The notes under the pieces: generated by a model
Told to the model about the DNA's origin: nothing
What the model saw: the letters and a program-made list of their open reading frames with translations, nothing else
The model's database searches: none
Part shown: positions 6,725 through 23,834 of the stretch, piece by piece
How positions within the stretch are numbered: the first letter of the stretch is position 1
Layout of the letters: each line of letters begins with the position of its first letter
DNA from: a virus
IMG/VR virus record: IMGVR_UViG_3300030107_000879
Span: 1-38,714 of that record
DNA length: 38,714 nt
Strand: one strand, 5' to 3'
Program-made: the position numbers and the translations under genes

Positions 6725-7633
6725 ATGGCTATTTCACGCGCACAAATGTTGAAAGAACTGCTCCCCGGACTGAACGCCCTGTTTGGTTTGGAATATGAGC
6801 GGTATGACGACGAGCACACGATGATTTACGAAAGTGAGTCATCTGAGCGTTCGTTTGAGGAAGAAGTGAAGCTGTCTGGATTCGGTGCGGCACCGGTCAA
6901 AGCTGAAGGCGCGGCCATCAGCTACGACTCTGCCCAAGAGTCTTTCACTGCTAGGTATAATCATGAAACGATTGCTCTCGGCTTCAGTATCACAGAAGAA
7001 GCAATGGAGGACAATCTATATGACTCATTGTCTGCAAGATATACAAAGGCTCTTGCAAGGGCAATGGCTCATACCAAGCAGGTGAAAGCGGCGAATCCAC
7101 TTAACAACGGCTTCGGCACTTTCCAATCTGGTGACGGCGTAACGCTGTTCAGCACAGCTCACCCGCTGGTAAACGGTGGCACCAATGCCAACCGTCCTAG
7201 CACTGCGGCTGATCTGAACGAAACCTCGCTGGAAGATGCTGTGATTAACATCGCCGCATTTACCGACGAGCGCGGTCTGCTGATCGCGGCACGTCCCCGT
7301 CGTTTGATCGTTCCACCCGCGCTTCAGTTTGTAGCAACTCGATTGCTTGAGACTGATGGCCGTGTTGGTACGTCTGACAACGACATCAACGCCCTTCGTA
7401 ACAACGGTTCGATTCCAGAAGGCTACTCAGTCAATCACTTTTTGACTGACACCAACGCCTTCTTTGTCATTACCGATGTACCGAATGGCATGAAGCACTT
7501 CCAGCGCACAGCGTTGGAGACCTCAATGGACGGCGACTTTGATACCGGCAATGTTCGGTACAAGGCTCGTGAGCGATACAGCTTCGGCGTATCCGATCCT
7601 CTGGGCATCTACGGATCACCCGGAACGTCCTAA
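6725..7633 (+). CDS. Major capsid protein (HK97-fold, Mu gpT-like)
   Basis: A 302-residue protein that should form the icosahedral shell. Visible features are an N-terminal helix (AQMLKELLPGLNALFGLEY, 6-24), an acidic extended segment (SSERSFEEEVKLSGFG) and a central helical spine (ITEEAMEDNLYDSLSARYTKALARAM). A loop with FSTAHPLVNGG follows, then PRRLIVPPALQFVATRLL and a C-terminal strand region around YKARERYSFGVSDPLGIYGSPG. The pattern resembles the Mu gpT-like capsid group. GGAG precedes the ATG. It is immediately followed by a strong terminator, as often seen after abundant capsid genes. Scaffold and chaperonin genes upstream agree. Confidence 0.85.
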   Translation: MAISRAQMLKELLPGLNALFGLEYERYDDEHTMIYESESSERSFEEEVKLSGFGAAPVKAEGAAISYDSAQESFTARYNHETIALGFSITEEAMEDNLYDSLSARYTKALARAMAHTKQVKAANPLNNGFGTFQSGDGVTLFSTAHPLVNGGTNANRPSTAADLNETSLEDAVINIAAFTDERGLLIAARPRRLIVPPALQFVATRLLETDGRVGTSDNDINALRNNGSIPEGYSVNHFLTDTNAFFVITDVPNGMKHFQRTALETSMDGDFDTGNVRYKARERYSFGVSDPLGIYGSPGTS

Positions 7634-9660: not shown

Positions 9661-10355
9661 TGGCCACGAGCGGAACAACTGGCTTTACTCTGGACTTGTC
9701 AGACGTTATCGAAGAAGCGTATGAGCGAGCTGGTCTGGAGCTGAGAAGCGGCTATGACTATAAAACAGCTCGACGTAGCCTAGACCTACTTATGTTGGAA
9801 TGGCAGAACAGGGGGTTGAACCTTTGGACTGTTAGAGACGCGACAGTTTCTCTTGTTGCCGGGACGGCGTCATACACTCTTGGCGTTGACAAGTTAGACA
9901 TTATTGAGGGATTGCTTCGCACAGACGCTGGGGATACATCAAAGCAGTCTGATCTAACCATGCAGAGAATCTCTGTTAGTCAGTATGCACATCAAACAAA
10001 CAAGCTAACACAGGGTAGGCCGTTACAGTACTACGTTGAGCGCAAGCCAACCGGCATAACACTTCACTTCTGGCCTGTCCCTGATGCCACAACGAGCTAC
10101 ACCTTTGCTTATTACTATATGGACAGGATTGAGGATAGCGGTAGGCCGGCATCAAACAATATGGACGTTCCGGCAAGGTTTTTGCCGTGCTTGGTTGCTG
10201 GGCTTGCCTATCAGGTCGCGAGCAAAAGGCCCGAGGCATTGCAGTTGGCGCCGGCACTCAAGCAGGTTTACGAAGAGCAGTGGAATCTAGCGTCTGATGC
10301 GGCAAGAGAAAAGGCCGCTCTGTATGTTGCGCCCGGAGGCTACAGCAATATATGA
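9660..10355 (+). CDS. Head-tail adaptor / connector protein (P22 gp4-like)
   Basis: A 231-residue protein with an N-terminal helical bundle (DVIEEAYERAGLELRSGYDYKTARRSLDLL, about 14-43) and the motif LEWQNRGLNLWTVRDATVSL. A beta domain and a C-terminal helical segment with LAYQVASKRPE follow. This arrangement is typical of head-completion/tail-adaptor proteins that bind under the portal in P22- and T7-like phages. The gene lies in the connector block before two further small neck genes. Family assignment is from pattern and synteny, not alignment. Confidence 0.7.
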   Translation: MATSGTTGFTLDLSDVIEEAYERAGLELRSGYDYKTARRSLDLLMLEWQNRGLNLWTVRDATVSLVAGTASYTLGVDKLDIIEGLLRTDAGDTSKQSDLTMQRISVSQYAHQTNKLTQGRPLQYYVERKPTGITLHFWPVPDATTSYTFAYYYMDRIEDSGRPASNNMDVPARFLPCLVAGLAYQVASKRPEALQLAPALKQVYEEQWNLASDAAREKAALYVAPGGYSNI

Positions 10356-10696
10356 GTAGTTATGCCAAGGGTAAAAAAGCATTTGGCTTTTGCGACAGAA
10401 CTGGATTTAGGTATCCGCTGAGAGACCTTGTTCGCCAGATAGAAGACGGTAGATGGAATGGTCTGTTGGTGGGTCGTGATGTTGTTGATCAAGATCAGCC
10501 TCAGCTAAAGCTCGGTGATGTTAACGCAAGCGACCCACAGGCGCTCAGGTTTCCAAGGCCAGACGATAGCCTAGACGAAAGCCGTGCGCTTTCTGCCTTT
10601 GATCCTGTTGGCGGGGGAAATACTGCCTTGGGTAGCCGCACCGTCGGTCTGGACATGGCTGGGGAAGTGGGCCGTGTGACGGTGGAGATATCTTAA
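10352..10696 (+). CDS. Small neck-region protein with CDRTGFRYPL motif
   Basis: A 114-residue protein overlapping the adaptor gene by four bases. Its N-terminal motif, FCDRTGFRYPLRDLVRQIEDGR (13-34 approximately), followed by GLLVGRDVVDQDQPQL, resembles a small phage protein often found near connectors. Only one Cys remains, so a zinc knuckle seems unlikely. The C-terminal part is low-complexity. It probably contributes to the neck or to adaptor assembly; the function is otherwise unknown. The stop overlaps the next start (TAATG). Confidence 0.68.
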   Translation: MSSYAKGKKAFGFCDRTGFRYPLRDLVRQIEDGRWNGLLVGRDVVDQDQPQLKLGDVNASDPQALRFPRPDDSLDESRALSAFDPVGGGNTALGSRTVGLDMAGEVGRVTVEIS

Positions 10697-11337
10697 TGGC
10701 GTTCACCTTTACCACTCTGAAGCAGGCTATACAGGACTACACAGAGTCAAATGAGACAACATTCGTCAATAACCTGACGACAATCATAAAACAAGCCGAA
10801 GACAGAATACTGAAGCGGTGTCAGCTCCCTGATTTCAGGAAGAATGTTACTGCTAACATGTCGTCAGCAAACCAGTATCTGGCGATGCCGACTGACTTCT
10901 TGACGCCATACTCGCTTGCGATAGACAACTCGGGATACGACTACCTTATATTCAAAGATGTAAACTTTGTTAGGCAGGCATATCCGTCCTCGTCGACAAC
11001 TGGCATACCTAAGTATTACGCAATATTCAGCGATACCTATTTTTTGATTGGCCCGACGCCAAATGCGAATTTTGCAGTGGAGCTACACTACTTCCACAAG
11101 CCAGAGTCTATTACAGCGGCGTCCTCGGGAACCAGTTGGCTTGGCACTAACGCGGAGTCAACCCTGCTGTATGGTTGTCTTCTGGAGGCATACACATTCC
11201 TGAAAGGCGATGCCGACCTAATGCAGTTGTACGCACAAAGGTATGAAGAGGCTGTTTCTCGTCTGGAGGAGCTGGGTGAAGGTTACAACACAACCGACAG
11301 CTACCGTAGTGGTGCCGTAAGGAAACCTAGAACGTAA
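10696..11337 (+). CDS. Neck/adaptor protein (head completion type)
   Basis: A 213-residue protein with an N-terminal helical region (TLKQAIQDYTESNETTFVNN) and QAEDRILKRCQLPDFRK. A central beta segment follows with the motif YLAMPTDFLTPYSLAI and a strand PKYYAIFSDTYFLIGPTP. The C-terminal helices include ESTLLYGCLLEAYTFLKGD and YAQRYEEAVSRLEELGEG. This build is common to phage adaptor proteins that sit between portal and tail. It begins and ends with one-base TAATG-type overlaps, indicating one operon with its neighbours. The exact subfamily is not certain. Confidence 0.72.
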   Translation: MAFTFTTLKQAIQDYTESNETTFVNNLTTIIKQAEDRILKRCQLPDFRKNVTANMSSANQYLAMPTDFLTPYSLAIDNSGYDYLIFKDVNFVRQAYPSSSTTGIPKYYAIFSDTYFLIGPTPNANFAVELHYFHKPESITAASSGTSWLGTNAESTLLYGCLLEAYTFLKGDADLMQLYAQRYEEAVSRLEELGEGYNTTDSYRSGAVRKPRT

Positions 11338-11615
11338 TGCTTGAGCTTGAGGTGGGGAGTGTTGCAGTTCAAACAACAAGCAACCGAGGGTTTACTCCGG
11401 AGGAGGTTGCTGAGCGATGCCTAGACCGCATTATAAATGTGTCGTCTTCCGCGCCACAGGCACTAAAGGATCAGGCGCTTGCATATCGCGACGACATTCG
11501 CGCTGTTTTGCTGTTTTACATGCGTGAAGCCATAAACAGTGATCGCACTACTATTTACAACGCTCTGGTAGAAGCAGGGCAAAAAGACCTAGCCGAGGCT
11601 ATCAGGAGGCTCTGA
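11337..11615 (+). CDS. Small helical phage protein, unknown
   Basis: A 92-residue helical protein. FTPEEVAERCLDRIINVSS (about 19-37) and the C-terminal TTIYNALVEAGQKDLAEAIR look conserved in character, as in small genes of related marine phages. It has no membrane segment or catalytic motif. It directly continues the neck operon (TAATG start overlap) and ends one base before the next ATG. Its role is unknown. Confidence 0.7.
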   Translation: MLELEVGSVAVQTTSNRGFTPEEVAERCLDRIINVSSSAPQALKDQALAYRDDIRAVLLFYMREAINSDRTTIYNALVEAGQKDLAEAIRRL

Positions 11616-12050
11616 ATGGCGTTTAGTGGAAACTTTATGTGTACCTCGTTCAAGAAGGAATTGCTTGAGGGCGTACACAATTTCAAGAACTCTGGTGGAA
11701 GCACGTTCAAACTGGCCATGTATACCAACAGTGCCTCTTTTACTGCGGCGACAACTGCATACACCACATCGAATGAGGTTAGCGGGACTGGATACACTGC
11801 TGGCGGAGCATCCTTGACTAGAGTAGATCCAACAACGTCCAGCACTACGGCGTTTACGGACTTTTCTGACTTAACATTTAGCACGGCGACTGTGACCGCT
11901 CGGGGAGCGTTGATATACAACGACAGCGCATCAGGAGATCCAACTGTTGTTGTGCTGGACTTTGGCGCAGATAAGACATCTACAGCCGGAGATTTTACGA
12001 TTGTGTTTCCCACGGCTGATGCGAGTAACGCGATTATTCGGATAGCGTAA
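11616..12050 (+). CDS. Putative virion structural protein (beta-rich)
   Basis: A 144-residue Thr/Ser-rich beta protein. The N-terminal segment SFKKELLEGVHNFKNSGGS (11-29) and FKLAMYTNSASFTAATTAYT match the style of small structural proteins found beside tail-fibre genes. GGAGG lies within the end of the previous gene (11604-11608), eight bases before the ATG. The function may be a tail or neck accessory. The stop overlaps the next start (TAATG). Confidence 0.65.
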   Translation: MAFSGNFMCTSFKKELLEGVHNFKNSGGSTFKLAMYTNSASFTAATTAYTTSNEVSGTGYTAGGASLTRVDPTTSSTTAFTDFSDLTFSTATVTARGALIYNDSASGDPTVVVLDFGADKTSTAGDFTIVFPTADASNAIIRIA

Positions 12051-12817
12051 TGGCTGATGTCATTGTCCCCCTCACTGGGTGGGGGCGAGATGGCTGGGGC
12101 GCCCTCGGCTGGAATGAGGGTAGTGTCACCAACTCAGGAGCTACAGGTGGCGTAGGATCTGTTTCGGTCCCTGCCGACGCAAGCGTATCTGTTACAGGGC
12201 TTTCCGCTACAGGCTCGGTTGGTTCCGCAACGGTTACAGCAGGGGCCAGTGTAAGCGTCACGGGACTCTCTGCAACTGGCTCTGTGGGCTCGGTCACTGT
12301 TGTTGCTGAGGCTAACGTAAGTGTTACGGGGCTTGCGGCAACAGGTTCTGTGGGGTCGGTAACAACCACCGCAGATTCAAACACAAGTGTTACAGGGCTT
12401 GCGGCAACCGGATCGGTTGGCTCAGTCACTACGACAGCGGGCGCAAGTGTTTCTGCAACAGGTTTTGCGGCAACGGGCGCTGTCGGCTCCGTTACGATTC
12501 AGACTGTTAACAATGTAGACGTTACGGGCGTTTCGGCTACCGGAGGTGTTGGGTCTGTTACCACCGTGGCTCAAGCGGGCGTGTCCGTAGAGGGCGTGTC
12601 TGGCTCGGGCGAGGTTGGTTCTGCACTGGTCTGGGGTGTAATTGTTCCAGATCAAACACCAAATTATGTAGAGATTGAGCCCTCTCAGTCTGCGGGCAAT
12701 TCAGAAATAAGTCCTTCTCAGTCAGCAGGGTACTCGACAATAAGTCCGTCGCAGTCACCCGGATGGACAGAGGTGGCTCCGTCACAAACGCCAAACTATG
12801 AAGATATTGCGGCATAA
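12050..12817 (+). CDS. Repeat-built tail/fibre-associated protein
   Basis: A 255-residue protein made almost entirely of repeats. After a Trp-rich head (GWGRDGWGALGWNEG, 10-24) and one 20-residue degenerate unit, residues 45-198 hold seven 22-residue units of the form VSVTGLxATGSVGSVTxxA. Residues 200-254 then hold five 11-residue units of the form PSQSxGxxxIx. Hydrophobic/Gly alternation suggests a stacked beta structure such as a fibre shaft. It sits between small structural genes and the tail fibre, so it may be a fibre or fibre-attachment protein. The function is inferred. Confidence 0.7.
   Translation: MADVIVPLTGWGRDGWGALGWNEGSVTNSGATGGVGSVSVPADASVSVTGLSATGSVGSATVTAGASVSVTGLSATGSVGSVTVVAEANVSVTGLAATGSVGSVTTTADSNTSVTGLAATGSVGSVTTTAGASVSATGFAATGAVGSVTIQTVNNVDVTGVSATGGVGSVTTVAQAGVSVEGVSGSGEVGSALVWGVIVPDQTPNYVEIEPSQSAGNSEISPSQSAGYSTISPSQSPGWTEVAPSQTPNYEDIAA
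12182..12643 (+). repeat. Seven 66-bp coding tandem repeats
   Basis: Seven in-frame units of 66 bases encode the 22-residue repeat VSVTGLxATGSVGSVT-type. The units differ mainly at third codon positions, so the protein pattern is kept while the DNA has drifted. The array is contiguous and has no spacers. Confidence 0.85.
12647..12811 (+). repeat. Five 33-bp coding tandem repeats
   Basis: Five in-frame 33-base units encode 11-residue repeats of the type PSQSAGxSxIS / PSQTPNYxxI at the protein's C-terminus. The outer two units keep TPNY, the inner ones SAG or SPG. Confidence 0.8.
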
Positions 12818-12829
12818 GAGGATTGGTTA

Positions 12830-14794
12830 ATGGCCAGCACTTATACAACTAACCTTGGTATTGAGAAGATTGGAACTGGCGAGCAGTCAGGGACATGGGG
12901 CGATACCACCAACACTAACTTTGACATCTTAGATGAGGCGGTTAATGGAATTATTTCAATCACGCTTTCGTCTGCGGGAAGCTCTGGATCTCCTACAGCC
13001 CTGCCCATAACGGATGGTGCCTCATCTAATGGTAGAAACAAGTTTATTGAGTTTGTGGATGGCGGAGATTTGGGCGGCACGGCGTATGTGCAACTCACGC
13101 CAAATAACGCGGAGAAAATTGTTCACATCCGCAACAGCCTGTCTAGTAGCCGGTCAGTTATTGTCTTTCAGGGCACTTACAACGCATCCAATGACTTTGA
13201 GATTGTAAACGGCGCAGATGTTCTGCTGAAGTTTAATGGCGGTGGATCAGGGGCCACAGTCACAGACGTTAATGTTGACTTGACAGTGACAGGCGCAACT
13301 ATTGCCACTGCTGACATCAACGGTGGAGCTATTGACGGCACCGTTATCGGGGGTGCTTCTGCCGCCGCAATCACTGCCACAACCATTACTGGCACCACTA
13401 TAACCGCCAGCACGGCGGTAGTCCCGGATGCTAGCGATGGCGCAACATTAGGATCAACCTCTTTGGAGTGGTCTGATCTGTACCTTGCAGACGGTGCCGT
13501 TGTGTTTTTTGGCGATGATCAAGACATCACGCTGACGCACGTTGCAGATACGGGTCTGACACTTAAACACGCCAATACCGGGGACGACAAGTTTCCCACG
13601 TTCTTGTTAGCCACCGGCGATACAGATATTGCCGCAGATGACAAGCTGGGTGTAATTAACTTTCAGGCTCCCGATGAGGGCGCAGGCACAGACGCAATAC
13701 TGGTTGCCGCGGGCATAGAAGCTGTATCTGAGGGTGATTTTAGCGCCTCTAGCAATGCTACTTCGCTTGTATTTAAAACAGGCGCAAGTGAAGCCGCCGC
13801 TGAAAAAATGCGCGTTAATAGTGCGGGTAGCGTGGGGATTGGTACGGCGAGCCCTTCAAGTACCGGATCAACCTATGGATCATTGACATTAAACGGCTCT
13901 GCTGGTGGAGAGGTTTTTGTAGCAACTGGCGGTACAACTAAAGGTACTTTATTTAATTACTCATCAGATGCAAACAATGTGGGCCTTGCGGCAACAGACT
14001 CATCTGGAGATTTGTTGTTTAGCACGGGCGGCTTTAATGAGCGTATGCGTATTAATAGCTCTGGCGACATCTCAATTGGCTCATCTTCAAACCATGCTGG
14101 CGCAAGAGTTGTTATTAACGACACCCCGCCAACAGCCTTTGGCAGTCCGATGTTTCAAGTCGGTCAAGAGACATTCACGGGTAGCGGGATGTACTCTATT
14201 GGTTTTGGGTACACGGCTGGAAGTTACACAGAGCCGCCCGTAGAGATTGCCGCGATCACAACATCAGATTCTGGCGGCACAAAAGCCGACATTGTTTTTG
14301 GTACTAGAAATGTAACAACAAACACGGCTGTAACAGAAAGAATGAGAATTGCCGCAAGTGGTGCAGTATCTGTAACTGGTGCGTTTTCTAAAGGTTCTGG
14401 ATCATTTAAGATTGATCATCCATTAGATGCCAAAAAAGATACGCACCATTTAGTTCATTCTTTTATAGAAGGGCCACAAGCAGACTTAATTTACCGAGGT
14501 AAAGTTGATCTTGTTGATGGATCTGCAACCGTAAATTTAGATACTGTTGCAACAATGTCTGCTGGTACTTTTGTTTCGCTTAACACTAATGTTCAGTGTT
14601 TTACTAGCAACGAGTCTGGATGGACTGCTGTAAAAGGTTCTGTTGCTGGCAATGTACTAACAATTACTGCGCAGGCGTCTTGCACAGATACTGTGTCTTG
14701 GATGGTAGTTGGTGAACGTTGTGATAAACACATGCTTGACACAGAGTGGACAGACGATAACGGTAAAGTAATTGTTGAGCCTTTAAAGTCATAA
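12830..14794 (+). CDS. Tail fibre / receptor-binding protein
   Basis: A 654-residue protein. The N-terminus (YTTNLGIEKIGTGEQSGTWG, then NFDILDEAVNG, 4-38) is a typical virion-attachment region of marine phage fibres. The body is Thr/Gly/Ala-rich beta sequence with fibre-type motifs such as AAEKMRVNSAGSVGIGTASP (about 324-343) and ERMRINSSGDISIG (about 404-417). The last 140 residues, beginning GSGSFKIDHPLDAKKD, form a distinct tip ending TEWTDDNGKVIVEPLKS. From about 13900 onward, and most clearly 14390-14790, the DNA is AT-richer than its surroundings, suggesting a tip acquired from another phage. Two stop codons in tandem (TAA TGA) end it, and the next ORF is in the same frame. Confidence 0.85.
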   Translation: MASTYTTNLGIEKIGTGEQSGTWGDTTNTNFDILDEAVNGIISITLSSAGSSGSPTALPITDGASSNGRNKFIEFVDGGDLGGTAYVQLTPNNAEKIVHIRNSLSSSRSVIVFQGTYNASNDFEIVNGADVLLKFNGGGSGATVTDVNVDLTVTGATIATADINGGAIDGTVIGGASAAAITATTITGTTITASTAVVPDASDGATLGSTSLEWSDLYLADGAVVFFGDDQDITLTHVADTGLTLKHANTGDDKFPTFLLATGDTDIAADDKLGVINFQAPDEGAGTDAILVAAGIEAVSEGDFSASSNATSLVFKTGASEAAAEKMRVNSAGSVGIGTASPSSTGSTYGSLTLNGSAGGEVFVATGGTTKGTLFNYSSDANNVGLAATDSSGDLLFSTGGFNERMRINSSGDISIGSSSNHAGARVVINDTPPTAFGSPMFQVGQETFTGSGMYSIGFGYTAGSYTEPPVEIAAITTSDSGGTKADIVFGTRNVTTNTAVTERMRIAASGAVSVTGAFSKGSGSFKIDHPLDAKKDTHHLVHSFIEGPQADLIYRGKVDLVDGSATVNLDTVATMSAGTFVSLNTNVQCFTSNESGWTAVKGSVAGNVLTITAQASCTDTVSWMVVGERCDKHMLDTEWTDDNGKVIVEPLKS

Positions 14795-14797
14795 TGA

Positions 14798-15085
14798 ATG
14801 GATCCTTTATCTTTAATTGCCATGGCGTCGACCACCTTCAAAGGTATACAGACGCTAGTAAACAGAGGTGCAGAGATTGAGCATGCTTTCGATTGGAAGG
14901 CAGACGGGACTCATCAAAAGTACGGCGTGATCGCACAAGAGCTGATTGAAGTGGCACCGGAAGCGGTTAGCGTAGGGGATGATGATGACAAAACTATGGC
15001 TGTCGATCATGCCAAACTTGTCCCTATGATGATTAAGGAAATACAAGATTTGAAGGCCGAAGTAGCGGCACTAAAAGGAGCATAA
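14798..15085 (+). CDS. Chimeric ORF: membrane-protein N-terminus fused to S74 chaperone tail
   Basis: A 95-residue ORF made of two unrelated pieces. Residues 1-29 match the first 29 residues of the 15549-16019 product at 26 positions (DNA about 82% identical over 88 bases). Residues 30-95 (FDWKADGTHQKYGVIAQELI, then DHAKLVPMMIKEIQDLKAEVAALKG) are the C-terminal half of a Peptidase S74 intramolecular chaperone, normally found at the end of a tail spike or fibre. The S74 autocleavage site and first helices (SDxRxK type) are absent here and in the fibre upstream. It may be a recombination remnant, or a small trans-acting folding factor. No clear ribosome site is seen. Confidence 0.65.
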   Translation: MDPLSLIAMASTTFKGIQTLVNRGAEIEHAFDWKADGTHQKYGVIAQELIEVAPEAVSVGDDDDKTMAVDHAKLVPMMIKEIQDLKAEVAALKGA

Positions 15086-15088
15086 ACC

Positions 15089-15409
15089 ATGGCACATGCA
15101 TGGACTGTAGGCGGAATGGACTACGATGTTTCGTCAGGCGGCAAAACTAACGTAGTGACTACCGTACACTGGCGCTGTTCAAAAACTGATGGCGATCACA
15201 GCGGATCATCTTATGGGTCTGTAGGGCTTGCGGCTCCGAGCGGGTCTTTTGTTGAGTGGGCTGATATTACAGAAGCAACTGCCGTTGGTTGGGCTAAAGC
15301 GGCTTTAGGCGCAGATGAAGTGACCGGCATCGAAGCCGGCGTTGACGCACAAATTGCAGAAGAGGCTAACCCCACGACAGGCGAAGGCGTTCCGTGGTCG
15401 TCAAGCTAG
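15089..15409 (+). CDS. Small phage protein near fibre genes, unknown
   Basis: A 106-residue protein preceded by AAAAGGAG (15073-15080). It contains WTVGGMDYDVSSGGKTNVVT and VHWRCSKTDGDHSGSSYGSVG, then an acidic C-terminal helix region with IEAGVDAQIAEEANP. I recognise the type as a common small protein downstream of phage tail fibres, with unknown function. Its end overlaps the next small gene by 16 bases. Confidence 0.7.
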   Translation: MAHAWTVGGMDYDVSSGGKTNVVTTVHWRCSKTDGDHSGSSYGSVGLAAPSGSFVEWADITEATAVGWAKAALGADEVTGIEAGVDAQIAEEANPTTGEGVPWSSS

Positions 15410-15549
15410 AGCTTAGTGTAGAGGAAGTTAACTCAGTGCTACAGGTTTTAGGCGAAATGCCCACTAAATCCGGCGCATGGCCACTGGTTGTTAAGATCAA
15501 AGAGCAGGCTGAAAGTCAGGTCGAGCCAGAAGCAGAAAGCAATGACTAA
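15394..15549 (+). CDS. 51-aa helical phage protein
   Basis: A short gene found by reading the gap. GTG at 15394 is preceded by GAAGG (15383-15387, six-base spacing), and TAA ends at 15549 overlapping the next ATG. The peptide reads MVVKLELSVEEVNSVLQVLG, then a segment with SGAWPLVVKIKEQAESQV and an acidic tail. This pattern (two helices around a Trp-Pro turn) is one I associate with small genes of unknown role in many phages. The double overlap supports its being real. Confidence 0.7.
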   Translation: MVVKLELSVEEVNSVLQVLGEMPTKSGAWPLVVKIKEQAESQVEPEAESND

Positions 15550-16019
15550 TGGACCCGTTATCCATGATCGCGATGGCGTCTACCACGTTCAAGGGCATCA
15601 AGACGCTGGTAGACAGAGGCGCAGAGATTGAGCATGTAGCGCAGAAGCTCGGGGCTTGGTATGGCTATGCGGCTGATATCAAGCAAATCGAAAAAGAAGC
15701 GGAAAGTCCCGGTATATTTAAGAAACTGTTTGATGGGAATACCGTTGAACAGCAGGCGCTTAATAGCGTCATTGCAAAGAAAAAGCTAGAAGAGCAAGAG
15801 AAGCAAATCAGAGAGCTGATCGTTTGGGCGTATGGCGTCGAAACTTATCAGGAGATGATCATGCTTCGCAGAAAAATTAAGGCTCAACGCGAGCAAGCCA
15901 TATACAAGCAAAGGCGAAGACGCCGGATGTTTGTCGACGGGGCTCTTTTGCTTGTCGGTTTGGCGGTGGGGGCTAGTATAATTTACGGGACGGTAATATT
16001 TATACGGGGAGCATCATGA
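15549..16019 (+). CDS. Membrane protein of the lysis/envelope cassette
   Basis: A 156-residue protein. The N-terminus (MDPLSMIAMASTTFKGIKTL) is followed by an amphipathic helical region to about 120. A run of five Arg (122-126) comes next, then one hydrophobic segment at 128-152 (GALLLVGLAVGASIIYGTVI). The basic run before the membrane segment suggests that the long N-terminal part stays in the cytoplasm. It opens the block that ends with holin and endolysin, so a role in lysis timing or envelope remodelling is likely but unproven. Its first 29 codons recur in the chimeric ORF at 14798. Confidence 0.72.
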   Translation: MDPLSMIAMASTTFKGIKTLVDRGAEIEHVAQKLGAWYGYAADIKQIEKEAESPGIFKKLFDGNTVEQQALNSVIAKKKLEEQEKQIRELIVWAYGVETYQEMIMLRRKIKAQREQAIYKQRRRRRMFVDGALLLVGLAVGASIIYGTVIFIRGAS

Positions 16020-16459
16020 AAAGACTGTTTATCTTGCTGGGCTTTGTGTCTGCGTCTGTCATGGCGAAGACAGTTATTCTGTATGACGACGGTACACAGT
16101 ACACCGTGGAGAATAACGAGAAAGTGTACGTCAGTGATTACTCTCAGCTATACCACTTCAAGCAGTGGGGTGACGGCGACATAGATTTGAGAAAGGTGTC
16201 GCCAAGCGTCAAGCGTGATCATGTGTACCAAGAACCGAGTGGCGAGGGCGAGTTAGGCAGTCCGCAGTGGTGTGAGACGTATGTTCCTTGGTCAGAAGGA
16301 CTGAACTTCAACATGACCGCGTGGCAGAAAGTTTGCGATGTCAATGACGATGGCATTTACGATATGTGTGACTATTACGAGCCTACCGGCATCCAGACGT
16401 TTGAAGAAATCGAATGGCAGGACAGGTGCAACGACGGTGATCCTTGGGATGGCTCGTAA
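16016..16459 (+). CDS. Sec-secreted protein with four Cys and Ca-loop-like motif
   Basis: A 147-residue protein with a clear signal peptide (MKRLFILLGFVSASVMA, cleavage after A17) and a good GGAG ribosome site. The mature part is acidic and aromatic, with four Cys (86, 107, 118, 138) that could form disulfides in the periplasm. The segment D108-V-N-D-D-G-I-Y-D-M-C-D119 resembles an EF-hand calcium loop. No enzyme motif is seen. The position in the lysis cassette suggests a periplasmic or outer-envelope job such as lysis assistance or superinfection blocking. It lacks a lipobox, so it is not an outer spanin of the usual kind. Confidence 0.75.
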   Translation: MKRLFILLGFVSASVMAKTVILYDDGTQYTVENNEKVYVSDYSQLYHFKQWGDGDIDLRKVSPSVKRDHVYQEPSGEGELGSPQWCETYVPWSEGLNFNMTAWQKVCDVNDDGIYDMCDYYEPTGIQTFEEIEWQDRCNDGDPWDGS

Positions 16460-16628
16460 AAGTCTTAGGGTGAAGGTTGCACGCGGAATTACTCAGACTC
16501 GGCGTGATGTCAGGAGTGTAGTGGCTCGCATAAAGGGCCGTATCTGGACTCTTCAGACTGACCTTAGATTGCGCCTGAAAAAGGCCAAAAAGGCTCTCCG
16601 TAAGGCGTGGAGTAAGTTCTGGAAGTGA
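16449..16628 (+). CDS. 59-aa cationic amphipathic peptide
   Basis: The gene starts at ATG 16449, overlapping the secreted-protein gene by 11 bases; a longer open frame reaching back to 16338 is a shadow of that gene. The peptide has 21 Lys/Arg and only two acidic residues. It has an Arg-rich first half (RGITQTRRDVRSVVARIKGR) and a C-terminal helix ending KKALRKAWSKFWK. Such composition is like cationic membrane-active peptides. It lies in the lysis cassette, where a disruptin-like outer-membrane agent is conceivable; a nucleic-acid-binding peptide is the alternative. Confidence 0.65.
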   Translation: MARKSLRVKVARGITQTRRDVRSVVARIKGRIWTLQTDLRLRLKKAKKALRKAWSKFWK

Positions 16629-16891
16629 ACGAGCAAAGATTAGAGCGAATTGAAAGTAAGCTCGACAAGGTGTCCTATTCAGTAGCTGACTTTGCCCGGA
16701 TAGAGGAAAGACTGCTTTCGGCGTTCAAGCGACTAGAGCGCCATGAAAAGCAGATTGACCGGCATGCTGATGACATCAAAACACTGACCAGTAGTGTGCT
16801 AACTAACTCCAGAACGCTTCAGTTTGGGGAGCGGGTATTCTGGATTGTAGTCACGGCAGGCGTCTCGCTTGCAGTGTACTTGAGGGGCTAA
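16625..16891 (+). CDS. Coiled-coil protein with C-terminal membrane anchor
   Basis: An 88-residue protein starting with GTG that overlaps the previous TGA (GTGA). Residues 3-60 form a long heptad coiled coil (RLERIESKLDKVSYSVADFA, then RLERHEKQIDRHADDIKTL). A single membrane segment lies at about 70-86 (VFWIVVTAGVSLAVYL). This arrangement is common for small proteins next to phage holins and may be an accessory holin, antiholin or spanin-like part. There is no direct evidence for which. Confidence 0.72.
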   Translation: MNEQRLERIESKLDKVSYSVADFARIEERLLSAFKRLERHEKQIDRHADDIKTLTSSVLTNSRTLQFGERVFWIVVTAGVSLAVYLRG

Positions 16892-16894
16892 GCT

Positions 16895-17296
16895 ATGTTG
16901 CAGGCGTTGATTGGGCCGGTCACGGGGTTGTTGGACAAATTTATTCCAGATGCAGATGAAAAGGCGAGGTTGGCGCATGAAATTGCAACCATGTCCGAAC
17001 GACACGCACAGGAGCTTGCCAAGGGCCAGTTGGAAATCAACAAGGCCGAAGCGGCGCATAAGTCACTGTTTGTCGCAGGGTGGAGGCCATTTGTTGGGTG
17101 GACTTGTGGTGTTGCTCTGGCTTGGCACTTTGTTGGCCAGCCTCTCGTTGTTTTTGGGATTGCAGTGGCTGGTGTTGACACCCCTGAATTACCTGTATTT
17201 GAGATGGAAAGCCTACTCACAGTTCTTCTCGGAATGCTCGGTCTTGGTGGTTTACGAACCCTTGAAAAAACCAAAAACATAGCTCGAGAAAAATGA
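16895..17296 (+). CDS. Holin of the 3-TM (GTA holin-like) family
   Basis: A 133-residue protein. An amphipathic N-terminus with coiled coil (about 20-55) is followed by AAHKSLFVAGWRPFVGWTCG (53-72), LAWHFVGQPLVVFGIAVAG (75-93) and a final hydrophobic segment, LLTVLLGMLGLGGLRTLEKT (107-126). The GWRPFVGWxCG and GMLGLGGLRTxEKTK motifs are those of the Holin_3TMs family. It would form inner-membrane lesions that release the endolysin to the cell wall. The next gene overlaps its end by four bases (ATGA). Confidence 0.88.
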   Translation: MLQALIGPVTGLLDKFIPDADEKARLAHEIATMSERHAQELAKGQLEINKAEAAHKSLFVAGWRPFVGWTCGVALAWHFVGQPLVVFGIAVAGVDTPELPVFEMESLLTVLLGMLGLGGLRTLEKTKNIAREK

Positions 17297-17493
17297 CACC
17301 AGAGACATTTGATAAGTGGCGCGTCGTACCAAGAGTGCTGGTTCTGATGATGGCATGGGCAACGTGGGACGTAATTCACTGGTTTACAACTTTGTCAGAC
17401 CCCACTTTTGAGCAGGCCGGTTTGGTTTCCGTGTGTACGGGCGCCATGACGGCTGTTTTTGGGCTGTTTTTGGGGCAGGGCAAGAAGGAGTGA
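17293..17493 (+). CDS. Two-TM small protein beside holin
   Basis: A 66-residue protein with two membrane segments (about 12-31, VPRVLVLMMAWATWDVIHWF, and 42-61, GLVSVCTGAMTAVFGLFLG), a short acidic loop between them and a basic tail (GKKE). It overlaps the holin gene by four bases and the endolysin by four. It is probably a second holin or an antiholin; the sequence does not decide between them. Confidence 0.72.
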   Translation: MTPETFDKWRVVPRVLVLMMAWATWDVIHWFTTLSDPTFEQAGLVSVCTGAMTAVFGLFLGQGKKE

Positions 17494-17843
17494 GCTACTT
17501 CTCAGAGGACGAGCTGAAGTGTCAACACTGCGGCAAGTACAAGTTTGATGAGGGTGTGCTCAAGATTCTGAATGCAATTCGCAGAGAGTTTGGCCCCATG
17601 CCTGTTAACAGCGGTTATCGCTGTGCTGATCACCCGATAGAGGCAAAAAAACAACAGCCGGGAGCGCATTGCACAGGTAAGGCTGTTGATATTGGTGTCA
17701 GCAGGGGCGATGCCTACAAGCTGATAGAGGTTGCACTGGCTCATGGGTGCCCAAGAATAGGTGTTAATCAGAAGGGTGAGGGGCGTTTTGTGCATTTGGA
17801 TTGGGATTATGATCGGCCATACCCAACTGTTTGGTCGTATTAG
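17490..17843 (+). CDS. Endolysin, M15-type peptidase
   Basis: A 117-residue enzyme predicted to cut peptide cross-links of peptidoglycan. It begins SYFSEDELKCQHCGKYKFDE, with PVNSGYRCADHP at 38-49. The zinc-site residues of the M15 fold are visible: H60 in GAHCTGKAVDI, D67 in the same motif and H102 in FVHLDWD. GTG at 17490 is taken as the start, overlapping the previous TGA. The AAGGAG there touches the start codon, so translation probably depends on coupling. An upstream in-frame GTG at 17433 would add residues read from inside the previous gene. It lacks a signal peptide, fitting holin-dependent release. Confidence 0.9.
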   Translation: MSYFSEDELKCQHCGKYKFDEGVLKILNAIRREFGPMPVNSGYRCADHPIEAKKQQPGAHCTGKAVDIGVSRGDAYKLIEVALAHGCPRIGVNQKGEGRFVHLDWDYDRPYPTVWSY

Positions 17844-17855
17844 CGAGGTGTAACC

Positions 17856-19709
17856 GTGCCGCTGTCGAAGATTGCATTTGCCCCCGGCATAAACAAGGAA
17901 GGCACCCAGTACACCGCCGATTCTGGCTGGTTTGATTCTGACAAGATACGCTTTCGCAAAGGTCGTGTTGAGAAGATTGGTGGCTGGCAGAAGTACATAG
18001 CAGGCACAATCAAGGGCGTGGCCCGTTCGTTAATGGACTGGGGCACAAAGGATGGTCAGACATTTCTAGGTATCGGCACAAACCTAAAGTTCTACATTGA
18101 GTCAGGTAAGTCGCTAAACGACGTGACGCCGATCAGAGCTACGACAACTAACGCCGCGACTTTTGCGGCCACAAACGGCTCCTCATCAATCACCGTAACA
18201 GACAGCTCTCATGGCGCTACGGCAGGTGACTTTGTAACTTACTCTGGGGCGGCTACGCTCGGCGGAAATATTACTGCGGCGGTGCTTAATCAGGAGTATC
18301 AGGTGGTTGTTGTCCTTACAGCTAACACCTACACCATAGCGGCAGTGGACACCAGCGGAGCCGCCGTGACCGCAAACTCCAGTGACACAGGAAATGGCGG
18401 CGGATCTGTAACGGCGGCATATCAGCTCACTACAGGGCTGAACAGCTATGTATCGTCAACTGGATGGGGTGTGGGCGCATGGAACGCAGGCGCGTGGGGT
18501 TCTGTGACATCGATAACACTGGCAAATCAACTTAGGCTGTTTAGTCAGGACGCTTTCGGTGACGATTTAATCTTCAACCCTCGGACAGGTAGTGTCTTTT
18601 TTTGGGACAAGTCATCAGGTCTTTCCACTAGAGCGGTTGATATCAGCACCTTGAGCGGGGCAAGCAATACGCCGACAGCCGCGCTTCAGGTAATGGTTTC
18701 GGACATAGATCGCCATGTCATTTGTTTTGGCGCAAATCCTATTGGGGGATCAGATTTAGATCCGCTTTTAGTTCGCTGGTCTGATCAGGAGAATGTTGCA
18801 GACTGGACGCCGACGGCTACAAACAGTGCCGGTGGTCAGGTTCTGTCTGTTGGCACTCAGATCATAGGCGCACTGAAGACAAGACAGGAAATAATCATAA
18901 GCACCGACAATGGGCTTACGTCGATGCGGTTTGTTGGGGCGCCGTTTGTTTTTTCATTCACCCCAGTGGCAGAGCACGTTCGATTCGCATCTCCTAATGC
19001 CGCTGTCGTGGCGGCTGACACCCTGTACTTTATGGACCCCGGCGGCTTCTACGTTTACAGGGGCGCGGTGCAGAGACTGCCATGCTCTGTTCACAGGTAT
19101 GTTTTTGACAACCTTAATTATGATCAGATATACAAGGTATTTGCGACGACAAATGCCGATTACTCTGAGGTAACGTGGTATTACCCTATTGGATCTAACA
19201 GCTCAGACATCACTAACTATGTGTCATACAACTACTTGGAGCAGGTGTGGGCTGTGGGCACCTTGAGCCGTGGCGCATACATACCGACAGCGACACAACA
19301 GTACCCGATTGCGGCGACAAATGATGTCGATAACCCGCTCACCAACTACCTGTACAACCATGAGATTGGCTACGACGGAGACGGCGCAGAGATAACCGCC
19401 TTTGTTGAGTCTGGCGACCTTGGCGTTGGTGACGGTGAGGCTTTTATGATGGTCAATCGGATTATCCCCGACTTTACATTTACGGGCGACAAGACCGAGG
19501 CAAGCCTAGAAATAAAGCTGAAGGGCAGAAACTTCCCGCTTGAGGATGCGTCTGACTTGTCAACAGCAACAGTGACCAGCTCAACAACGCAATCTCACGT
19601 CAGGGCCAGAGCCCGAGAGCAGATCGTCAGGATAGAGTCTAGTGGTCAGGGATACGGGTGGTCTCTGGGTGATCTTCGTTTGGGCATTAGGACGGATGGG
19701 AGGCGATAG
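17856..19709 (+). CDS. Tail nozzle-like protein (P22 gp10 / T7 gp12 type)
   Basis: A 617-residue protein with a GTG start after a GAGGTG ribosome site. The N-terminus (LSKIAFAPGINKEGTQYTAD, then SGWFDSDKIRFRKGRVEKIG, 3-42) is typical of podovirus tail-tube/nozzle or DNA-stabilising proteins. The body looks like a large beta-propeller with repeated strands such as WSDQENVADWTPTATNSAGG and LYFMDPGGFYVYRGAVQRLP. Around residues 100-190 there is a Ser/Thr/Gly-rich insertion that may be an extra Ig-like or beta domain. It should cap the short tail and keep DNA in the head until infection. The exact relative is not confirmed. Confidence 0.78.
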   Translation: MPLSKIAFAPGINKEGTQYTADSGWFDSDKIRFRKGRVEKIGGWQKYIAGTIKGVARSLMDWGTKDGQTFLGIGTNLKFYIESGKSLNDVTPIRATTTNAATFAATNGSSSITVTDSSHGATAGDFVTYSGAATLGGNITAAVLNQEYQVVVVLTANTYTIAAVDTSGAAVTANSSDTGNGGGSVTAAYQLTTGLNSYVSSTGWGVGAWNAGAWGSVTSITLANQLRLFSQDAFGDDLIFNPRTGSVFFWDKSSGLSTRAVDISTLSGASNTPTAALQVMVSDIDRHVICFGANPIGGSDLDPLLVRWSDQENVADWTPTATNSAGGQVLSVGTQIIGALKTRQEIIISTDNGLTSMRFVGAPFVFSFTPVAEHVRFASPNAAVVAADTLYFMDPGGFYVYRGAVQRLPCSVHRYVFDNLNYDQIYKVFATTNADYSEVTWYYPIGSNSSDITNYVSYNYLEQVWAVGTLSRGAYIPTATQQYPIAATNDVDNPLTNYLYNHEIGYDGDGAEITAFVESGDLGVGDGEAFMMVNRIIPDFTFTGDKTEASLEIKLKGRNFPLEDASDLSTATVTSSTTQSHVRARAREQIVRIESSGQGYGWSLGDLRLGIRTDGRR

Positions 19710-19907: not shown

Positions 19908-20229
19908 TGCGATAAAGGTTCTTGGTCAAGCAGATGTCAGCGCGACGACCACAACCACGCTGTATTCAGTACCAGATCTAACGCAAACAACTTGTAGCTC
20001 ACTTGTTATATGTAACAGGGGCGGATCTGGCATCACGTTCCGCGTGAGCATTCATGTAGACAATGCCAGCGCAGACGACAAGCAGTTTATTTTTTTCGAT
20101 GAAGACTTAGCGGCCACCACGTCGAGAACAGTGGTGATTGGCCTGTGTTTGGGTCAAAAGGACGTGGTCAAGGTCTATGCAAGTGCGGCTAATGTCAGCT
20201 TCAACTTATTTGGTGTAGAGACAAGCTAA
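19900..20229 (+). CDS. Small beta-rich structural candidate
   Basis: A 109-residue protein starting at GTG inside the previous gene's end. It is beta-rich and has VLGQADVSATTTTTLYSVPD (7-26), a SSLVICNRGGSGITFRVSI strand pair and a C-terminal strand, KVYASAANVSFNLFGVE. It resembles small virion surface or fibre-base proteins in composition. The stop overlaps the next start (TAATG). The function is not recognised. Confidence 0.65.
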   Translation: MADAIKVLGQADVSATTTTTLYSVPDLTQTTCSSLVICNRGGSGITFRVSIHVDNASADDKQFIFFDEDLAATTSRTVVIGLCLGQKDVVKVYASAANVSFNLFGVETS

Positions 20230-23200
20230 TGATGAATCAATATCCAGCTAAGCCAATGATGGATCAGATGGCGCAGTATGGGCGTTATGGCGACTCCATG
20301 CTGGTGCATATGAACCCAGTGGAGGTTGCAGGGATCGCGTCACTGTCCCCGACAGGAAGCCTGACGATCAACCCTGTAACAGGTCAGCCAGAGGCGTTTT
20401 TGCCGATACTTTTCGGCGCTCTTGGCGGCGCCTTGAAGCTGGGCACGCTTGGCACGGCGGCGTTAACCGGGGTAGGCACAGCCGCCGCCACAGGAGATAT
20501 CCGGCGCGGCTTATTAAGTGCCGTGACTGCTGGGGTTGGCGCGAAGCTGTTTGAAGGCATTGGTGGCCTTTTTGACTCTGCCCCAGAAGTATTGGATACG
20601 GGCATTGCGGGCGCTGAGACAGCCGGTGCGGCCACTGTGGGCGCTGAGACGGCAGTTTCTGGTTTGGACGCATCTAACGCCACGGCCAACTTGAATTTAC
20701 TTAATCCTAACAATCCCAACCTGATAGACCCCAGAAATACGCTTGGTCAGATGAAAGAGCAACTGGCTCAGGCAGACCAACTCCTAGATCAATCGGGTGT
20801 AACCACTATGGATAGACTGGCTGGGGATCTTCAGCAGTCAAAAGACCTTGTCGCCTCTGTTACCGAACCAGCCGCAAGAACCCCGAACATGAGTGATGCC
20901 GTATTTGGCCGAGGTGAACAGCTTGCCCAAGCTGGTCTCGACAGAATCGGAACCACTGGCCAGTTGCTTTTGGGTGGCACTTCCGCGTCGCTAGAAGAGC
21001 AGATGAAGATGGAGGATAAATTCGAGCGGGCCGCAAGAGCCCGAATGGCCGAGGCGGAAGAGAAAAAAGCACAGTCCACGGCTGATCTACAGCTTGGATA
21101 TGCGATGGCACAGCCAGACGCTCCAAGGGGCAGAAGCCCCATGAGGGACCGGATGGATCGTTACATACGGGACTATGGCACCGACCTGTATGCGGCGGGT
21201 GGCGGCCAAATGCCCACAATGAAAATGCAGGTTGGCGGCGTTGGCGGCGCGGCCGCCGCCGCAGAGCAATATTTGCGCCAACAGTATCAGCAAAGTGGCT
21301 CGTCTTTGCCTTATGACCAGTGGGTCCAAGAGACTTACGGAAACCAAGGAGGTCAAGGGGGTGGAGGGGGTGTCGACACCACGCCTGCTGTAACAACAGA
21401 CACTCTCGGTCCCATAAATGTGCCACCTACCGATCAAGAGGCGGCTGTTCTTGCGGCGGCTAGAGGAAATACCCCTCTTAGCCCACAAGATCAGCAGATT
21501 CTGGAGGGGTATTACAACCGCTACGAGCAGGAAAGGCAGAACCGAGCATCCCAGATTACCGATACGGGCAGTGATTTCGATCTTTCCGCTATCGCCGCAA
21601 GTACTGGCATGTTTGGGTACAACCCAACTGCGGATATCGGCGGGATTGATCCGGTGACGATCCAAGCGGGTTTGCGTGGTGATTACGTTATTAGACCTCC
21701 AGACGACTACATGCCCGGATTTGAGGCAGAGTTTTCGTATTTTCAAGATGACCCCAATGCGCCATTCATGCCGTACAGGGGCTATAGGCCAGTCACTGGC
21801 GGGATTACGTCGGAGGGCGATTATTTCGACCCCATCCTCGACAGAGGTGCCTACAAGAAGAAGTTGGCTGAGTACTACGCGACACTAGCGAGCTATGGAT
21901 TGGGCGAAGACCGAAGTGATACTGAAGGAGGAGACGGTACTGGTGGCGGCGGCACTGATGGCACAACCAGCCCTGAATACGAAGCAAGAATACAGGAGCT
22001 GATGGCTAGAGGCATGACCAGAGAGGAGGCAATTGCAAACCAACAGTTCGCCGTGGAAAGCGGCTATGACCTCAATGGTGATGGAATTGTAACTAACAAC
22101 GAATACGCAACAGCAATGGGTCAAGACCTTGATGGTGACGGAACAGTAACCAACAATGAGTATGCAATCTCACAGGGTTATGACCTTGATAGTGACGGAA
22201 CCGTTACCAACAATGAATATGCGGTATCAATGGGGTATGACATTGATGATGACGGCACTGTAACCAACAACGAGTATGCGGTGTCGATGGGTTATGACGC
22301 TGATGGCGACGGCACCGTAACTGATAATGAATATGCGGTGGCAATGGGCTACGATCTCGATGGTGACGGCACCGTGACTGATGCTGAGTATGCGGAGTCT
22401 AGAGGTATTACTAAGGATGATTACCTGTTGTCGATGGGTTACGACCTTGATGGCGACGGGACGGTGACAAACAATGAGTACGCAGTGTCAATGGGCTATG
22501 ACCTTGATGGTGATGGAACGGTAACTGATGCTGAGTATGCAGAGGCTACTGGTCTTAACAAAGATGAATCCGATGATAAGACAGCGGCCGAAGAGACAGC
22601 GGCCGAAGAGACAGCGCCCGAAGAGACAGCGGCCCCACCTGAAGATCCGATAGATCCAATAATACCTGATGACACGGGAACTGTAGACAAACCCACCGAC
22701 AACACAGGTGGCATTGATTTATCCACCCTGCCCCCAAGAATAAGAGAGCTGATAGAGTCTGGCCAACTTAACTTAGATACCCTACGAAGATTTTATGGCG
22801 GGTTTGGTCCTTTTGCTGGGTACAACCCAGCACAGACAGCGCCACCCCCACCAAAAGACCTAACATCAAGGGCCGGAGCAGGCATTCCTTCTACCCTGCC
22901 CCCGAACATACGAAGCTCAATAGAGTCTGGTCAATTTAATCCAGCCAGTATTGCTCAAAGGGGAGGCAGAGGCCGCAGAAGCATGAGCGAGGGCGGTGAG
23001 GCGAGAGGGCCCTTAAAAAGCCTTCAAGATTACCTAAAAAGGGCGGCTCAAACTTACGGTGGAATTAACACTACGGGTCAAATTTTTCGTGGGTTAGGTT
23101 CTCTGATGGAAAGCAACATACCCCGTGCCGCAACTGATCCACTGCCCTTTGATGACTTCCCATCTGGCCCCACTACGCCCACACCGGACGCACCGTCCAA

Positions 23201-23834
23201 CCAACGAAGAAAGCCATCTTTTGGTCGTTTGGGGCCGATGCCATCTACTGCCAGTCAACAAGCAAAGCCTATTCCAACAAAGACGCCGTCGTTTTCTCGT
23301 TTTGAAGAAGGCGGCGATGTAAGACTTCAGACATCTCTTGGTGAGGCTCGGGTGCCCGGAGGCGGCATCGCTGAAGTTGAGACCCAGTTCACGGCTAGAC
23401 CAGAGAGAGCTGAAATGCCGACAAAAGATGAAATGGACATCTTGGCAATGGCAGTCATGGGCGAGGTTAGCGAGGAGCAACAAGACATGATCGTCAGTGC
23501 CTTTACTGAAAAGTATGGGGCTGAGATGTACGCCATGCTTAGGTCAGAGATATTGCGATCAGTTGTGCCGGACGCCCAAACAGAGGGGATGATTCGGGGC
23601 AATGGCGGTGGTATGGACGATAAGATTCCCGGTATGATTGGCGCTCAACAGCCTGTTGCTGTGTCGCCCGGAGAGTTTATCGTTCCGGCAGATGTAGTTT
23701 CGGATCTGGGTGATGGAAGCTCAGACTCTGGAGCTGACGAGTTATACGCAATGATGGAGCGTGTGCGAAAGGCTCGGGGCGGCAACGGCGAACAGCCCCC
23801 AGCAATTAACGCACGGACAAATATGCCAGCATGA
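20229..23834 (+). CDS. Large internal/ejection protein with EF-hand-like repeats
   Basis: A 1,201-residue protein. A hydrophobic Gly/Ala region at about 55-120 (FGALGGALKLGTLGTAALTG) may enter membranes. A helical part follows, then a Gly/Gln-rich linker near 335-390. A compact unit lies near 460-570. Residues 614-776 carry eight calcium-loop-like repeats (DLDGDGTVTNNE). Next come Glu/Thr repeats (about 785-802) and a Pro-rich section. The C-terminal domain, with GGGMDDKIPGMIGAQQPVAV and SPGEFIVPADVVSDLGDGSS, is a type I associate with large marine phage virion proteins. As first gene of the ejection block it probably leaves the particle with the DNA. It could start three bases later (ATG ATG). 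Confidence 0.78.
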   Translation: MMNQYPAKPMMDQMAQYGRYGDSMLVHMNPVEVAGIASLSPTGSLTINPVTGQPEAFLPILFGALGGALKLGTLGTAALTGVGTAAATGDIRRGLLSAVTAGVGAKLFEGIGGLFDSAPEVLDTGIAGAETAGAATVGAETAVSGLDASNATANLNLLNPNNPNLIDPRNTLGQMKEQLAQADQLLDQSGVTTMDRLAGDLQQSKDLVASVTEPAARTPNMSDAVFGRGEQLAQAGLDRIGTTGQLLLGGTSASLEEQMKMEDKFERAARARMAEAEEKKAQSTADLQLGYAMAQPDAPRGRSPMRDRMDRYIRDYGTDLYAAGGGQMPTMKMQVGGVGGAAAAAEQYLRQQYQQSGSSLPYDQWVQETYGNQGGQGGGGGVDTTPAVTTDTLGPINVPPTDQEAAVLAAARGNTPLSPQDQQILEGYYNRYEQERQNRASQITDTGSDFDLSAIAASTGMFGYNPTADIGGIDPVTIQAGLRGDYVIRPPDDYMPGFEAEFSYFQDDPNAPFMPYRGYRPVTGGITSEGDYFDPILDRGAYKKKLAEYYATLASYGLGEDRSDTEGGDGTGGGGTDGTTSPEYEARIQELMARGMTREEAIANQQFAVESGYDLNGDGIVTNNEYATAMGQDLDGDGTVTNNEYAISQGYDLDSDGTVTNNEYAVSMGYDIDDDGTVTNNEYAVSMGYDADGDGTVTDNEYAVAMGYDLDGDGTVTDAEYAESRGITKDDYLLSMGYDLDGDGTVTNNEYAVSMGYDLDGDGTVTDAEYAEATGLNKDESDDKTAAEETAAEETAPEETAAPPEDPIDPIIPDDTGTVDKPTDNTGGIDLSTLPPRIRELIESGQLNLDTLRRFYGGFGPFAGYNPAQTAPPPPKDLTSRAGAGIPSTLPPNIRSSIESGQFNPASIAQRGGRGRRSMSEGGEARGPLKSLQDYLKRAAQTYGGINTTGQIFRGLGSLMESNIPRAATDPLPFDDFPSGPTTPTPDAPSNQRRKPSFGRLGPMPSTASQQAKPIPTKTPSFSRFEEGGDVRLQTSLGEARVPGGGIAEVETQFTARPERAEMPTKDEMDILAMAVMGEVSEEQQDMIVSAFTEKYGAEMYAMLRSEILRSVVPDAQTEGMIRGNGGGMDDKIPGMIGAQQPVAVSPGEFIVPADVVSDLGDGSSDSGADELYAMMERVRKARGGNGEQPPAINARTNMPA
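22068..22556 (+). repeat. Eight EF-hand-like calcium-loop repeats (57-bp units)
   Basis: Units of 19 residues begin at residues 614, 633, 652, 671, 690, 709, 739 and 758. Each fits DxDxDGxVTxxE, the twelve-residue EF-hand loop with acidic ligands at 1, 3, 5 and 12. Only seven residues separate loops, more like thrombospondin type 3 or dockerin repeats than paired EF-hands. Unit six carries an 11-residue insertion with a KDD segment. The DNA copies differ mostly at silent positions. Confidence 0.88.
22581..22634 (+). repeat. 15-bp tandem repeat encoding AAEET
   Basis: The 15-base unit acagcggccgaagag occurs about three and a half times and encodes an acidic Ala/Glu/Thr linker just after the calcium-loop array. 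The copies are almost identical, differing by single bases, so the array may be young or prone to length change. Confidence 0.8.

Follow-up and report, generated by a model that had tools for sequence, protein, structure and literature searches.

Organization of the fiber locus

The window, a 38,714-nucleotide stretch of viral DNA (IMG/VR record IMGVR_UViG_3300030107_000879), carries a tail fiber gene followed by an ORF of 95 amino acids (aa), a DUF7936 gene, and a membrane-protein gene. As the original prediction had read, the fiber ends in TAA (at 14794), a TGA comes next, and the 95-aa ORF starts at 14798 in the same frame. Relatives of this ORF and of the three surrounding genes were searched, which yielded about 300 loci (L numbers below). 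The features of the locus are as follows.

12830 to 14794, plus strand: tail fiber gene, 654 aa, with a native N-terminal part and a probably acquired tip, as judged from the fibers of relatives and DNA identity to L002
14326 to 14885, plus strand: block probably acquired from an L161-like phage, comprising the fiber tip, TAA TGA, and the beginning of the donor's membrane-protein gene (29 codons and one further base), delimited by a two-breakpoint fit
14345 to 14791, plus strand: putatively acquired, S74-free fiber tip (FIBC), 149 aa, 98.7% identical to L161 in amino acids and 98.0% in DNA over 453 bp
14798 to 15085, plus strand: chimeric ORF, 95 aa, a probable donor membrane-gene start joined to a stranded S74 tail
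14798 to 14885, plus strand: start of a membrane-protein gene, probably donor derived (codons 1 to 29 and the first base of codon 30), with 92% identity to L161 and 93% to L140 versus 82% to the window's own copy, and preceded by the leader of the other clade
14886 to 15082, plus strand: C-terminal half of a Peptidase_S74 chaperone, probably stranded from the original fiber, with a PF13884 match and a DNA match to L002 from 14886
15089 to 15409, plus strand: DUF7936 gene (PF25590, E value of 1.3e-29), which follows the S74 fiber in relatives in a conserved order
15549 to 16019, plus strand: intact native membrane-protein gene, 156 aa, the ortholog of the source of the chimeric N terminus, with 98 to 99% amino acid identity to L002 and L084 and 67% to L161

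Between the DUF7936 and membrane-protein genes lies a small conserved ORF (positions 15394 to 15549; about 51 aa, GTG start, containing LSVEEVNSVLQVLGEMPTKSGAWPLVVKIKEQAESQ), which overlaps the ATG of the membrane gene, occurs in many relatives, and falls under the 60-aa limit of the ORF listing. Farther downstream, a 1,201-aa protein (20229 to 23834) contains repeats of the type YDLDGDGTVTNNEYAVSMG that match EF-hand models (PF00036, E value of 2.6e-10) and resemble a calcium-binding array, and a 2,562-aa polyvalent protein (27268 to 34956) contains an LPD38 domain (E value of 1.3e-37) and a weak, below-cutoff match to an ADP-ribosyltransferase.

Two-part composition of the 95-aa ORF

Residues 31 to 57 of the ORF match the Pfam family Peptidase_S74 (PF13884) at profile positions 28 to 57 of 58, and the score of 28.9 bits exceeds the curated cutoff of 22 (E value of 1.5e-6) over the back half of the profile only. 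Residues 30 to 93 match the C termini of many fiber PHROGs, with phrog_5668 the best (E value of 5.8e-18), and the S74 tail shows 78% amino acid identity with the fused S74 of L002. Residues 1 to 29 agree with the start of the gene at 15549 at 26 of 29 residues by direct reading and at 72 of 88 bases by blastn (E value of about 3e-15). These matches bear out the two-part ORF of the original prediction, a membrane-gene start in residues 1 to 29 and the C-terminal half of S74 in residues 30 to 95, and such an ORF is not common among relatives: a degenerate search for the junction pattern in the viral collection returned one other contig only, from the same phage, and a search of the genome collection with the chimeric protein returned one weak S74 match only. 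The earlier description of a "membrane-protein N-terminus" holds as homology to the start of a membrane gene but not as a membrane segment, which is not seen by eye in residues 1 to 29; by the same reading, the 15549 protein probably has its transmembrane stretch close to the C terminus.

The front half of S74, previously noted to be missing from the ORF and the fiber, was not found in the window: a tblastn search with the front half of a relative gave a best E value of 0.03, and a six-frame search for the motif S[DE]x[RN]xKx[NH] gave no match. The catalytic serine and lysine (S-D-x-R-x-K), invariant in intact relatives, are thus found neither in the ORF nor elsewhere in the window, and the catalytic half of S74 is lost from the genome. 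The motif SDxx[LYM]K occurs in 83 of the 86 distinct S74 frames examined, with two variants (SDVRFK and SDEREK) among the other three, and only the window's phage lacks the motif region. Residues 30 to 95 are homologous to the C-terminal half of Peptidase_S74 as known from the K1F endosialidase and T5 pb1, with the GxxAQE region and the C-terminal helix both represented, but the ORF differs from these proteins in lacking the front half with the catalytic Ser/Lys and in carrying a foreign N terminus. In addition, the tail lies outside the fiber polypeptide, unlike the typical location of S74 at the C terminus of a fiber or spike. A putative separate S74 frame of another kind occurs in L024 (4797 to 5204), in which an in-frame TGA just before the fiber tip and a complete S74 would make the S74 part an independent 133-aa frame; this TGA may be a point mutation, a sequencing error, or a true split gene.

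Parental arrangements and breakpoints

The N-terminal 157 aa of the fiber are 97 to 99% identical to those of relatives whose fibers run on into S74, and the DNA of the window is 96 to 97% identical to that of L002 in 9888 to 13858 and 14060 to 14337 (97% in the latter). In L002 and L084, the same fiber continues unbroken into a complete S74, followed by the DUF7936 gene and the membrane-protein gene. In L161, a fiber ending in the tip found in the window has TAATGA behind it and immediately thereafter, without an intervening S74 or DUF7936, the membrane-protein gene. Both an intact fiber-S74 fusion and a donor-type arrangement were therefore found among the homologous loci, in agreement with the original placement of the ORF at the scar of a fiber-tip swap. 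In the first set of homologs of the FIBC tip, 68 of 79 fibers stop no more than 10 aa from the end of the match, and S74 was found in the same ORF in none of the 79; a downstream S74 match accompanies two of them, in a separate second fiber. Because its homologs lack S74 in the same ORF, the new tip of the window probably folds without this chaperone.

The window is L002-like to about 14326, L161-like to 14885, and L002-like again from 14886. The best two-breakpoint fit (14326 and 14886) accounts for 1,210 of 1,401 positions, versus 880 or 912 with one parent alone, and in a sliding comparison the closer match changes from L002 to L161 at around 14340 and returns to L002 at around 14886. Over the 548 bp from 14338 to 14885, there are 16 mismatches to L161 (97% identity) versus 344 to L002. 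The left joint falls within a fiber segment common to the window, L002, and L161, while the right joint (14885/14886) shows at most one or two shared bases when L002 and L161 stand in for the parents. The right breakpoint lies within codon 30 (GCT, Ala), of which G corresponds to the donor codon GTT in L161 and CT to the recipient codon TCT in L002. An open frame across this joint needs no selection, since an in-frame join has a one-in-three chance. Both parental arrangements, with abrupt switches of identity at the joints, are thus identified, which is the pattern by which a recombination scar is recognized. The mismatches to L161 are unequally distributed, with 7 of 88 positions (8%) in the membrane-gene piece versus 9 of 453 (2%) in the tip (Fisher P value of 0.008); the exact donor was therefore probably a phage other than L161, or the exchange took two events, and L161 is best regarded with caution as a stand-in for the donor type.

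Stranded S74 tails in other phages

The sequence just after the stop of FIBC-type fibers was scored in three frames, with the stop as anchor, for similarity to 108 C-terminal tails of intact S74 domains, for a total of 136 distinct ends. A score of at least 60 was obtained at 4 of these (67 to 84), and not even 35 was reached by any of 408 shuffled or reverse-complemented sequences, 600 other gene ends, or 102 ends of fibers with an intact S74. The four S74 C-terminal tails, of about 22 to 29 aa and directly after the fiber stop, are as follows (ends approximate).

L199, 5338 to 5412: stranded S74 tail, starting at an ATG that overlaps the fiber stop
L235, 5456 to 5530: stranded S74 tail, starting at an ATG that overlaps the fiber stop
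L349, 2174 to 2245: stranded S74 tail
L404, 2962 to 3055: stranded S74 tail

The test set includes the examples noticed first: L199 and L235 come from the first look, and L349 and L404 from new searches. Shorter tails of similar appearance in L167, L179, L377, L360, L217, and L223 are too short to count. Swaps toward the FIBC tip type thus appear, from these sequences, to leave S74 tails behind more than once, in cases that may not all be independent events. The leftover in the window exceeds all the others in length, and no other was seen joined to the beginning of a second gene. No convincing case of the reverse polarity, FIBC-type leftovers after S74 fibers, was found.

Proposed origin of the chimeric ORF

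We consider it very likely that a natural replacement of the fiber tip left the ORF behind as a scar, a recent by-product of recombination without a function of its own; its origin as a swap scar is much firmer than the absence of function. The ancestor would have had an L002-like fiber ending in a self-cleaving S74 intramolecular chaperone. Recombination with an L161-like cousin phage would have exchanged the previous tip, along with the front half of S74, for a tip with its own stop and no S74. The left crossover would have occurred within the fiber segment common to both phages, and on the right side the donor DNA would have overrun the fiber stop into the next gene and joined the middle of the recipient's S74 with almost no homology. 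The join is in frame by chance, so that the donor start codon would read 29 donor codons, a spliced Ala30, and 65 S74 codons. A promoter and terminator scan found no plus-strand promoter-like site near the start of the ORF. The ORF is probably translated weakly or via a restart after the fiber stop. It is presumably functionless and would be expected to decay.

Possible function and alternative explanations

Of 34 positions conserved in intact relatives, the S74 tail keeps 32 and departs at two, and it shows no clear decay. Its dN/dS relative to L002 is about 0.22, inside the range of intact pairs (0.06 to 0.24) and near its top. This lack of decay fits a recent event and also fits a retained function. 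T5 pb1 cleaves itself by means of a catalytic serine at the start of the chaperone domain and forms a trimeric coiled coil from its C-terminal helices (PMC4690869). The ORF cannot cleave itself, because all the invariant residues of the S74 front half (S, D, R, K, and N), including the one corresponding to the cleaving serine of pb1, are in the missing part; it could at most provide, in trans, the back half of the chaperone.

Such a role, raised in the original prediction, is possible but unsupported. It would mean that the chimera, provided with the donor start codon, has been kept as a small chaperone or cap that trimerizes via its C-terminal helix and helps the new tip to fold, which we regard as quite unlikely. 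The conserved positions of the tail are consistent with it, as are the ATG starts of the L199 and L235 tails. In addition, Alteromonas phages A5 and V22 have separate chaperones, encoded beside the fiber, that resemble intramolecular chaperone domains (PMC10579305); however, the helical body is complete in these established trans chaperones, whereas the ORF of the window is a truncated, stranded half with a putative role at most. The fibers of other phages with the FIBC tip lack S74 in the same ORF and mostly have no downstream remnant, and the new tip did not evolve alongside the S74 of the window. The AlphaFold monomer model of the chimera is of low confidence (mean pLDDT of 64) and decides nothing; like that of an intact S74 domain (56), it is too poor for fold searches. 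A PDB sequence search with the 66-aa tail gave mostly spurious histone matches and one weak match to a phage fiber protein. A mixed alignment of the chimera, S74, and membrane proteins was misaligned and was dropped. The broader proposal, that tails stranded by swaps to the FIBC tip type sometimes persist as coiled-coil peptides translated on their own (23 to 95 aa, starting at or overlapping the fiber stop) that still aid trimerization of the fiber in trans, is quite unlikely. If true, such peptides would be an intermediate linking the fused form of an intramolecular chaperone with a fiber chaperone encoded by its own gene.

It is very unlikely that the translated ORF has a disruptive or tuning effect on the native 15549 protein: such an effect would act through the N terminus that the two share at 26 of 29 residues, and a role of this N terminus in assembly is purely conjectural. 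The window is a virus record and the joint is known from assembled sequence, so that the junction might be an assembly artifact merging two co-occurring phages. This explanation is highly improbable. A second viral contig of this phage (L312) has the identical arrangement at 99.73% identity over 13,855 bp, with the junction spanned by several kilobases on each side and with 38 differences elsewhere, none of them in 12465 to 19262, which makes a one-off assembly error unlikely. In addition, the fiber frame is open through the left breakpoint, and stranded tails of a like kind occur in other phages. Most of the differences between the window and L312 fall into two clusters, one at 6758 to 7048, with 28 differences over about 290 bp of the major capsid gene, and one at 19263 to 19355, and these clusters look like patchy recombination of close relatives.

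The earlier claim that the N terminus was duplicated from the phage's own 15549 gene into the S74 region, where the two places are 82% identical over 88 to 89 bp, is hardly tenable, since membrane genes from other phages are better matches to 14798 to 14885 (92 to 93% over 86 to 88 bp), the leader before the ORF is TAATGA-ATGGATCC, of the type of the other clade, versus GATGACTA-ATGGACCC before the 15549 gene, and the segment is contiguous with the donor fiber tip, in the same order as in L161. The N terminus thus appears to have arrived together with the donor's tip. The mostly silent differences between the two copies had been taken to argue for selection on the chimera or for descent from a related phage; the latter is supported, and the differences are best read as divergence between orthologs before the swap rather than as a sign of selection.

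Significance of the probable tip replacement

The mosaic exchange of fiber tips is well known (PMC6872550 and PMC10579305), and the scar proposed here represents ordinary mosaicism that is unusually well resolved; its interest lies in the completeness of the record and in the recurring chaperone leftovers. As in the exchange of receptor-binding tips between T7- and K1F-type fibers (PMC6872550), the fiber N terminus is conserved and the tip appears to come from another phage, but in the window the donor segment overran the fiber stop and a chimeric ORF lies at the joint. No description of a stranded S74 tail was recognized in the literature collection searched on fiber mosaicism and chaperones. 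The leftovers give S74 scores and can easily be labeled as a chaperone gene, a caution for automatic annotation. The locus provides an unusually complete record of a probable host-recognition swap in a marine phage, in which the recipient type, the donor type, both breakpoints, and the leftover are visible, and the recurrence of stranded tails suggests that tips using the self-cleaving S74 chaperone give way repeatedly to S74-free tips.
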